From positions 1 through 30,623 of the IMG/VR virus record IMGVR_UViG_3300042892_000612: a stretch of 30,623 nucleotides of DNA. The stretch is one strand, 5' to 3'. Of the stretch, positions 28,279 to 30,623 are shown in pieces. The first letter of the stretch is position 1. The number at the start of each line of letters is the position of its first letter. The notes below the pieces were generated by a model, which did not search any database, had not been told where the DNA came from, and worked only from the letters and a program-made list of their open reading frames with translations. Source of the DNA: a virus. The position numbers and the translations under genes were made by a program.

Positions 28279-28529
28279 CTCTCTACCGTTGCAACGGCTT
28301 TCGCTCGGTTCGCGCCGAAGGCATCGCCGCCGCCGCTGAGATCTTCGCCCGCCGTGCCGCTCGCCGCGCATTCGGTCGCCGCGGATATGTTCGGACCCTT
28401 GTGGAAGATTCTTACGTCCCGAATCTCTCGATTGTAGAATTCGCCGCTTTCATCGGTTACTCGAGCGGCCGCAACGAAACTACCGGACATAACGTCCGTT
28501 TCACCGTAGTCAACGGAGGTTCCCTTTGA
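28263..28529 (+). promoter_or_regulatory. Two identical 16-base RBS/TTG start cassettes
   Basis: CGGAGGTTCCCTTTGA occurs at 28263-28278 and again at 28514-28529. Each copy contains GGAGG, a six-base spacer, a TTG start and the overlapping TGA stop of the upstream gene; each also encodes the same GGSL end of the upstream protein. These cassettes set the starts of the 84- and 234-residue genes. Confidence 0.75.
28275..28529 (+). CDS. Hypothetical Arg/Ala-rich protein, TTG start, 84 aa
   Basis: An 84-residue protein starting at TTG 28275, six bases after GGAGG and overlapping the previous TGA by TTGA. It reads YRCNGFRSVRAEGIAAAAEI, then an Arg/Ala helix, GRRGYVRTL, and VEFAAFIGYSSGRNETTGHN, which looks like a conserved small domain. 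There is no ATG in a useful place, so the TTG is supported by the Shine-Dalgarno and coupling. It probably binds nucleic acid given its basic helix, but no function is established. Confidence 0.65.
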   Translation: MTLYRCNGFRSVRAEGIAAAAEIFARRAARRAFGRRGYVRTLVEDSYVPNLSIVEFAAFIGYSSGRNETTGHNVRFTVVNGGSL

Positions 28530-29230
28530 ACGGCTTCATTCTCCACGAGGATCGCGACCGCGTGATCATCGCGACCGGCTTTGAAACTCCGAGCGATAAC
28601 CGGAAAACCGGCGACATGATTCAAATTTGGATCCTAGTCAAAGCCTGTAGCCCTACCGAAGCAATCCGCACGGGCTTGGATCGTTTGATCTGTGGATCTT
28701 GTGTCCATCGCGGGCACGAAGAAAACGGCCGCTTCGGTGTTGAGCGCACTTGCTACGTGAACCCCGGCCAAGCCCCACAGGGTATCTGGAAGTCGTGGAA
28801 AGCCGGAAACTATGCGCCCTTGCGTAGTCTCGAGTGTTTCGTCGGAAGGAAAGTCCGTTTCGGAGCTTATGGCGATCCCGTGCACATCCCGCTTTCCCTT
28901 GCGCTTGCAATTGCGGGTGTGGCTTCGGGGTGGACAGGCTACACACATCAATGGCGGAAACCCTCCTTGCAAGGATGGAAAACCCTTTTGATGGCCTCGG
29001 TGGATTCCATCGCGGAACTTGTGATCGCCCGGTCGCTCGGGTGGAGCACCTTTCGTGTTGGCTCCGAAGCTTCGGTAGGGGAATCCCTTTGCGCGTCCGA
29101 TCGCGATGGAACCCCATGCGCTGTGTGCCTGCTGTGTGCGGGTGCTCGCGGGGGTCTCGAGTCTGTCCACATTCCGCCCCATGGAACCGGTGCCCGTCAC
29201 TTCGTGGACATGCCCGCTTTGATTGCGTGA
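28526..29230 (+). CDS. Cys-rich phage protein with Gp88-like motif order, 234 aa
   Basis: A 234-residue protein starting at TTG 28526, with GGAGG six bases upstream in an exact copy of the preceding start cassette. Motif order: CGSC (51-54), CYVNPGQAPQGIWKSW, VRFGAYGDPVHIP, GYTHQW, MASVDS, and a C-terminal CAxxRDGTPCAVCLLC cluster followed by a terminal H-x-x-x-H-G region. The order resembles phage gene-product-88 proteins (C..C..CY, then a G-D, a Y-T and a C..C..C..H cluster). Function of that family is unknown. The Cys sets suggest metal binding. Several other frames are open here, but only this one has a consistent pattern. Confidence 0.7.
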   Translation: MNGFILHEDRDRVIIATGFETPSDNRKTGDMIQIWILVKACSPTEAIRTGLDRLICGSCVHRGHEENGRFGVERTCYVNPGQAPQGIWKSWKAGNYAPLRSLECFVGRKVRFGAYGDPVHIPLSLALAIAGVASGWTGYTHQWRKPSLQGWKTLLMASVDSIAELVIARSLGWSTFRVGSEASVGESLCASDRDGTPCAVCLLCAGARGGLESVHIPPHGTGARHFVDMPALIA

Positions 29231-29564: not shown

Positions 29565-29660
29565 ATGAAACCCCTCCTTCGCGTCCTTGGGTATCTTGCC
29601 CTGTGTCTACTTTTCACCCTCCTTCTCATCCTATCTGCCCTTGCCGGCAACGGTAAGTAA
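29565..29660 (+). CDS. Tiny single-pass membrane protein, 31 aa
   Basis: MKPLLRVLGYLALCLLFTLL and a further hydrophobic LILSALAG give one membrane helix with a basic start, typical of tiny phage membrane proteins. It begins four bases after the previous stop and ends 21 bases before the terminator hairpin. No function assigned. The case for it is the hydrophobic pattern and the fit between stop and terminator. Confidence 0.5.
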   Translation: MKPLLRVLGYLALCLLFTLLLILSALAGNGK

Positions 29661-29681: not shown

Positions 29682-29712
29682 CCCGTAGGTTTACCCCTAC
29701 GGGCTTTTCTTT
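29682..29712 (+). terminator. Rho-independent terminator of plus-strand cluster
   Basis: CCCGTAGG (29682-29689) pairs with CCTACGGG (29696-29703) around a 6-base loop and is followed by CTTTTCTTT. A clear intrinsic terminator just after the last gene of the cluster. Confidence 0.85.
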
Positions 29713-29832: not shown

Positions 29833-29859
29833 GTCACTGGTCACTGGTCACTGGTCACT
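29833..29859 (+). repeat. GTCACTG heptamer tandem array
   Basis: Three perfect GTCACTG units and a partial fourth (GTCACT), 27 bases, period 7. An inverted GTGACCA copy lies 17 bases downstream. The form suits an iteron or binding array. Confidence 0.75.
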
Positions 29860-29895
29860 TTCGATTTGACACTAGGTGACCAGGATACCCCCTAG

Positions 29896-29965
29896 GACAT
29901 CGAATGTCCCACCCCGCTATTTGCATAGCACTCCAAGGTAAGACATCCCATGTCCCACCCCGTTA
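29896..29965 (+). promoter_or_regulatory. Pair of repeated dyad operators
   Basis: GACAT-CGA-ATGTC (29896-29908) and GACAT-CCC-ATGTC (29942-29954), starts 46 bases apart, each followed by CCACCCCG and then CTA or TTA. The dyads are typical of homodimer operators. GCTAT-TTGC-ATAGC lies between them. Confidence 0.55.
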
Positions 29966-29990
29966 CATCCACTGCGACCTTGCCGGTATC

Positions 29991-30012
29991 ATCCCGAAAT
30001 CTGTTTCGGGAT
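29991..30012 (+). promoter_or_regulatory. 9-bp perfect hairpin
   Basis: ATCCCGAAA (29991-29999) pairs with TTTCGGGAT (30004-30012) around the loop TCTG. No U-run follows, so it is not a standard terminator. It may be a regulator site or structural RNA element. Confidence 0.6.
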
Positions 30013-30021
30013 CATGCAATC

Positions 30022-30158
30022 TCATGGTGCGGTATTCGGGATTCTCCATACGCCATACGGAATTCGGAATTCGGAAATCCAGAATCGGGAATCGGGGTAC
30101 AGGGAAATCTCCATGCCATGAAAGATTACCCCTTGACGAGGAGGATCATGGTGCGGTA
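30022..30158 (+). repeat. 13-base direct repeat flanking the heptamer array
   Basis: TCATGGTGCGGTA occurs at 30022-30034 and 30146-30158, bracketing the heptamer array with starts 124 bases apart. The second copy overlaps the candidate promoter spacer. Confidence 0.7.
30034..30096 (+). repeat. Nine-unit heptamer array, consensus ATTCGGR
   Basis: Read in sevens: ATTCGGG, ATTCTCC, ATACGCC, ATACGGA, ATTCGGA, ATTCGGA, AATCCAG, AATCGGG, AATCGGG. All nine begin with A, and most fit A-T/A-T/A-C-G-G-R. The phase is kept for 63 bases. Confidence 0.7.
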
Positions 30159-30162
30159 GGTT
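30133..30162 (+). promoter_or_regulatory. Weak candidate promoter before the 51-aa gene
   Basis: TTGACG (30133-30138), 18-base spacer, TAGGTT (30157-30162). The -35 is strong and the -10 weak (3 of 6). The GTG start at 30170 is only about 8 bases beyond the -10, which would give a leaderless message. A GAGGAGG tract at 30138-30144 precedes an ATG that stops after three codons. Confidence 0.3.
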
Positions 30163-30169
30163 GGGCGGC

Positions 30170-30325
30170 GTGAACCAACAAACCATTGTCGCCACCTTCC
30201 GCAAGCCGGATGGAGAGATCGAGAAGGACTTCAGCTACCATGAACCGATCGGCGAGGCCCGCGAGGCTGCTGAGGAGGACGCTCATCGCTACGGGTGGGA
30301 GTTCCTGAGTGTGGAGGTTCAATGA
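30170..30325 (+). CDS. Small acidic hypothetical protein, 51 aa
   Basis: A 51-residue acidic protein starting at GTG 30170, reading NQQTIVATFRKPDGEIEKDF, SYHEPIGEAREAAEEDAHRYGWEFLSVEV. It looks like a short beta strand, helix and strand unit. Its stop overlaps the next gene in ATGA, which supports the frame, and its 3' end carries the GGAGG used by that gene. Function unknown. Confidence 0.6.
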   Translation: MNQQTIVATFRKPDGEIEKDFSYHEPIGEAREAAEEDAHRYGWEFLSVEVQ

Positions 30326-30623
30326 AGCCCCGCATCCTTGTGGCCTGTGAGTACAGTGGCCGGGTTCGCGATGAGTTCGCGGCCCGAGGCTGGGATGCGT
30401 GGAGTTGCGATTTCGAGGAGTCAGACACGGTGGGCCAGCATTACCGCGGTGATGTGCGGGATCTTCTCAACCAGCAATGGGACATGCTGATCGCGTTCCC
30501 GCCATGCACCTACCTCTGTGGAAGCGGCATGCACTGGACTACACGGGGACTTCGCGACCCCAAGCTGACCGAGGAAGCACTCACATTCGTCCATCTGTTA
30601 ATGAATAGTACCCCCCCCCGTAT
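30322..30623 (+). CDS. DNA cytosine methyltransferase-like protein, partial
   Basis: The first 100 residues of a C5-methyltransferase-like protein. The SAM-binding start is ILVACEYSGRVRDEFAARGWDAWSCD, then YRGDVRD and WDMLIAFPPC (residues 53-62); the PPC motif carries the likely catalytic Cys62. I recall phage relatives of this type, some of which act as solitary methylases. GGAGG lies five bases upstream of ATG 30322. The window ends at a run of nine C. Family members usually continue IPRIAIENP, but the read frame gives PPPY, so a one-base shift in the C-run is likely. Confidence 0.75.
   Translation, partial: MKPRILVACEYSGRVRDEFAARGWDAWSCDFEESDTVGQHYRGDVRDLLNQQWDMLIAFPPCTYLCGSGMHWTTRGLRDPKLTEEALTFVHLLMNSTPPR

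Follow-up and report, generated by a model that had tools for sequence, protein, structure and literature searches.

A near-invariant array of contiguous 7-base units in uncultured phages as a candidate initiator-binding site of a replication origin

The window, by which we mean the whole stretch of 30,623 nucleotides analysed here, is a phage contig that carries terminase, portal and capsid genes on the minus strand and, beyond these towards its left end, genes for RecT-like, exonuclease, single-strand-binding, helicase and resolvase proteins. Among phage records, the nearest named terminases belong to the Akkermansia phages Chantilly, Chambord and DTMo-2021a (31-36% identity). A scan of IMG/VR yielded 261 relatives of the window phage. 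Further along the window lies a plus-strand gene (28526-29230), the version of which in a relative matches PHROG 2554 (E=7e-61), a family with no function assigned. At its right end, the window stops just past a C run (30606-30623) inside a gene that continues in contig L002, which shares 3,328 identical bases with the window; the end at 30623 is probably an assembly break.

The region studied here follows a plus-strand gene cluster, the last member of which is an ORF of 31 aa that encodes a short hydrophobic peptide (29565-29660, +). The end of this peptide (...LSALAGNG, then stop) recurs in relatives upstream of the region. The cluster is closed by a terminator-like hairpin (CCCGTAGG/CCTACGGG) with a T-rich stretch (29682-29712, +), which is kept in relatives with altered arms, e.g. 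CCCCTAGG/CCTAGGGG, and the non-coding hub starts after this hairpin at 29682. It contains a GTCACTG tandem array (29833-29859, +) and two GGACAT-N3-ATGTCC palindromes, GGACATCGAATGTCC (29895-29909) and AGACATCCCATGTCC (29941-29955), which are spaced by 46 bp as compared to 33 bp in many relatives. Next comes a perfect 9-bp inverted repeat with a 4-base loop (ATCCCGAAA/TTTCGGGAT, 29991-30012), which is also present in L066, L062, L080 and L054 and missing from most relatives. A first copy of the motif CATGGTGCGGT (30023-30033, +) is found just upstream of an array of nine in-phase heptads (30032-30094, +), within which a near-invariant core of two CCATACG units, two GAATTCG units and a final GAA (CATAnnCCATACnnnnTTCGGAATTCGG) occupies 30046-30076 (+). 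The second motif copy (30147-30157) is embedded in the spacer of a promoter-like sequence, TTGACG-18-TAGGTT (30133-30162, +). Such a sequence accompanies downstream accessory genes; several of these loci have it 85-87 bp beyond the first base of the core, and a few at other distances. The ORF, hairpin, inverted repeat and promoter-like sequence of the window were read directly from its letters.

Among relatives, 134 of 146 loci have one or two GGACAT-N3-ATGTCC palindromes in the 350 bp preceding the core. Across nine long genomes, exact or near-exact copies of CATGGTGCGGT, found around the core, cluster together with the palindromes at this one hub. Outside it, these genomes have only single mismatched motif copies and, in three of them, an extra palindrome (one exact, two mismatched) between about -2.2 and -2.4 kb, close to the divergent terminase promoter region.

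Downstream of the element, a slot holds either no gene or one to several plus-strand genes (methyltransferase-like and others). The window has here the start of an accessory gene (MKPRILVACEYSGRVRDEF..., 30322-30623, +), methyltransferase-like by eye and cut by the contig end, whose full ORF is found in L002. Differing methyltransferase-like and small genes occupy the slot between element and primase in L254, L265, L002 and others. After the slot, many loci continue with a plus-strand ORF of ~200 aa and then a convergent gene for a primase-helicase (AAA_25, E=2e-15; PHROG 2597 DNA primase, E=9e-50). The latter lies 0.76-2.25 kb from the element, so that a replication gene is close by, as at iteron-type origins. 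The window phage's own layout is visible in L002, where the slot is followed by the primase at 1,664 bp from the element. While the genes in between vary from none to several, the element is constant. Moreover, loci with an empty slot show no convincing gene start for ~300-450 bp after the core, and serving as the promoter of one fixed gene would therefore not account for the core.

A preliminary description of this DNA had pointed out two arrays that share a 7-base period and differ in sequence, namely GTCACTG in 3.9 units and ATTCGGR in nine, the latter run being called unlikely by chance. Tandem Repeats Finder (TRF) recovered the first as described (period 7, 3.9 copies, 100% matches), with 20 consecutive lag-7 matches against a maximum of 10 in 100 order-1 simulations of the window. 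At lag 7, the second gave 42 of 56 matches around 30034, a value that no other lag between 4 and 12 approaches anywhere in the window and that compares with a maximum of 31 in 300 whole-window simulations. Both arrays thus exceed every simulation, and their units indeed differ (GTCACTG versus CCATACG/GAATTCG). Read in phase from 30032, the heptads of the second array are GTATTCG, GGATTCT, CCATACG, CCATACG, GAATTCG, GAATTCG, GAAATCC, AGAATCG and GGAATCG. Nine in-phase units therefore hold, although calling them all ATTCGGR was generous, as two read CCATACG and those on the outside are degenerate. The array is a composite, with CCATACG twice, GAATTCG twice and then degenerate heptads, and not nine copies of one unit.

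Comparison with relatives separates the two arrays. To keep the element itself from picking the relatives, loci were selected by the terminase protein only, retaining those whose contig covers the site and extends 3.5 kb or more upstream. The core is present in 43 of these 43 loci (40 strict, three with 1-3 edits), at 2.07-3.36 kb from the terminase. Selection by the primase-helicase found it in 55 loci, 756-2253 bp from the 3' end of the primase gene; the other 24 primase-selected loci have at most 2.14 kb of flank, too short to tell. In each of 17 long records, the core occurs once. Nearly all viral matches of the 17-base GAATTCGGAATTCGGAA also have the CATAC half, and three perfect GAATTCG units instead of two were seen in 3 of 92 distinct sequences. 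Mean pairwise identity amounts to 0.914 in the core, a figure somewhat favoured by the use of 37 loci matching the strict core pattern, to 0.648 at terminase fourfold sites and to ~0.30 in the flanks, where a comparison without gaps lowers the value. As the element stays nearly unchanged while its surroundings drift, a role as a protein-binding site is very probable, and the heptad core is likely to be under strong selection in this role. The GTCACTG array, in contrast, is missing in 104 of 146 loci, with one unit in 22, two in 5, three in 5 and four in 10. It is a lineage-specific and dispensable local expansion that is not conserved, for which neutral repeat expansion is likely. An inverted GTGACCA copy, also mentioned in the preliminary description, does exist at 29876-29882; relatives show GGCAACC, GGCGACC or CCCACC, and we rejected it as a part of the element for lack of conservation.

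The analysis of GC skew, which had been suggested as a check, revealed a local change from negative to positive around the heptad array in all nine long genomes. The cumulative minimum is located 0.2-1.4 kb from the element in seven of the nine and elsewhere in two. At fourfold sites of minus-strand genes alone, the skew is -0.50 and -0.18 before the element and +0.41 and +0.33 after it (3-kb bins), which excludes gene direction as the cause of the switch. The pattern is not the textbook one with two arms: the block of negative skew spans only ~-8 kb to 0, and elsewhere the skew is near zero or positive. Within this terminase-portal block (nine genomes), the skew is opposite to that of the other minus-strand genes, fourfold sites included. 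The core is also a local, shallow minimum of helix stability, with no strongly A+T-rich unwinding region. We take the skew switch as supportive of a replication origin without deciding the matter.

With these data at hand, we propose that the heptad array (30032-30094) may be the initiator-binding, iteron-like part of the phage replication origin, a reading that we consider about equally likely to be right or wrong. According to this model, the contiguous CCATACG/GAATTCG units would be bound cooperatively by a DNA-binding protein that the phage or its host encodes, and binding would open the adjoining DNA or mark it for loading. The next step would be recruitment of the primase-helicase, whose gene is 0.76-2.25 kb away, and the GGACAT-N3-ATGTCC palindromes and CATGGTGCGGT motifs would serve as sites for accessory regulators in the same hub. 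We infer protein binding at the heptads, the initiator identity of that protein and the start of replication there, all three, from conservation, single copy, non-coding placement, a neighbourhood that is constant although its genes change and the local skew switch. Like iteron-type origins, the locus has multiple short direct repeats at one non-coding site per genome, and its core is conserved among relatives independently of neighbouring genes. The idea of origin iterons, offered earlier for both arrays, is supported for the second by conservation, single copy, primase-helicase and skew, and finds no support for GTCACTG. The refuting outcome named in the preliminary description, a lack of conservation in relatives and of a skew change, speaks against GTCACTG, whereas the heptad array passes this check. 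A binding protein for the arrays was not found, and no gene could be assigned as the initiator; two small HTH proteins with weak matches are candidates. More tentatively still, and with less confidence than in the origin itself, the array might represent a new type of origin, in which two different 7-base units form one contiguous array for an undescribed initiator in widespread uncultured Verrucomicrobiota phages.

The strongest competing explanation, which we regard as possible though rather doubtful, is a hub of transcriptional control, in which a phage regulator would bind both palindromes and heptads as tandem operators or an enhancer and so set the expression of the short plus-strand operon or of the downstream slot of accessory genes. 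The upstream terminator would fit such a hub, as would the TTGAC-N17/18-TA promoter-like sequence with CATGGTGCGGT downstream where accessory genes exist. The palindromes resemble repressor operators, three of nine genomes have the extra copy near the divergent terminase promoter, and the phage encodes HTH proteins. However, the core is equally conserved in genomes that lack accessory genes and any convincing gene start over the next ~300-450 bp, it lacks a fixed promoter, and an operator alone does not predict a skew switch. Both functions may also coincide at the element; in lambda, origin and transcription control do so. Separately, contig L191 encodes a 183-aa phage protein (2949-3500, -) with a weak match to a sigma-region-4-like HTH. 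By eye only, its C-terminal segment is like the RNA polymerase alpha C-terminal domain and it has a CxxC motif, while a comparison with solved structures gave no significant match. This protein is a candidate for regulating or binding the site.

Two further explanations are far less probable than either the origin or transcriptional control. The array could serve partition or clustering through a ribbon-helix-helix (RHH) protein in the manner of the omega heptads of pSM19035, whose architecture is one of contiguous, unspaced 7-base repeats with one protein dimer on each (PMC9499535). Yet the unit sequence and the orientation pattern differ from pSM19035, nothing points to a plasmid-like state, and a Pfam and PHROG search of 44 ORFs of a 36-kb relative gave neither RHH nor ParA proteins among the matches listed (25 of 28-29 families). 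Just as improbably, the site could be where packaging starts or where the genome ends (pac/cos). Many contigs do end within ~250 bp of the site, and the terminase genes are 2-3 kb away. These ends are scattered (-72, -88, -94, -156, -167, +30, +32, +37, +96 and others) rather than fixed, though, and three genomes assembled with end repeats of 105-127 bases cross the site without interruption, while near-complete contigs begin at unrelated places.

Slightly less probable again is that the element as a whole arose by neutral repeat expansion or is a heptamer repeat of host type. The number of GTCACTG units varies like a microsatellite, and the occasional third GAATTCG unit could be viewed in the same way, but conservation of the core exceeds that of synonymous sites. 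The host-repeat option, for which cyanobacterial heptamers had been named as a precedent, finds no support: a 22-base version of the element was found in only one of 195 Verrucomicrobiota genomes, a test that sampled the probable host phylum, and the full element was confined to one phage-like contig. The least probable reading is that the element acts as RNA (a leader, small RNA or antiterminator signal); it is non-coding and downstream of a terminator-like hairpin, but the RNAalifold consensus of 30 relatives has 8 pairs at -3.2 kcal/mol with almost no compensatory change, and an Rfam search gave no match.

In a collection of 84,980 genomes, the full element occurs once, on a 5-kb contig that belongs to a Verrucomicrobiota MAG and has the same flanking phage sequence. 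Together with the nearest named terminases being those of Akkermansia phages, this allows Verrucomicrobiota to be reasonably inferred as the host phylum. The carriers of the element constitute a large, uncultured family of freshwater phages with probable hosts in this phylum. Phages of Verrucomicrobiota are little studied, and the 31-base signature, which marks well over a hundred contigs, provides a tag for the family. A replication assay could be aimed precisely at its core, and the element may lead to an initiator or regulator with an unusual binding unit of seven contiguous bases.

Searching phage records, Akkermansia phages included, with the element at the nucleotide level gave no match covering 80% of it, and no direct match turned up in a literature search on heptamer iterons, or on repeats of 7 bp, in the origins of phages. 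With the STRR (short tandemly repeated repetitive) heptamers of cyanobacteria, the element shares the seven-base period. STRR heptamers are dispersed through host genomes, whereas the element is present once per phage genome and almost absent from the sampled Verrucomicrobiota genomes. For contiguous 7-base units, the closest described architecture that we found is parS of pSM19035, in which non-palindromic repeats without spacers form arrays of 7-10 bound by the RHH protein omega (PMC9499535). There, the unit is WATCACW in mixed orientation and six parS sites exist (PMC9499535), whereas the phages have one array per genome and units (CCATACG, GAATTCG, GTCACTG) that do not fit WATCACW; the matches listed included no homologue of omega or ParA. 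Iteron-type origins of phages, satellites and plasmids have in common with our element that short direct repeats lie at one non-coding, replication-associated site per genome. Examples are the lambda ori, which contains iterons for the O protein, and the origin of the PLE satellite. The usual iterons are longer than the contiguous 7-base units seen here. The PLE origin likewise sits in a non-coding region (PMC7145576). What sets the phage element apart from these origins is that its units are 7 bp long, contiguous and of two sequences, CCATACG and GAATTCG, and that the replication gene nearby encodes a primase-helicase and is convergent with the site.
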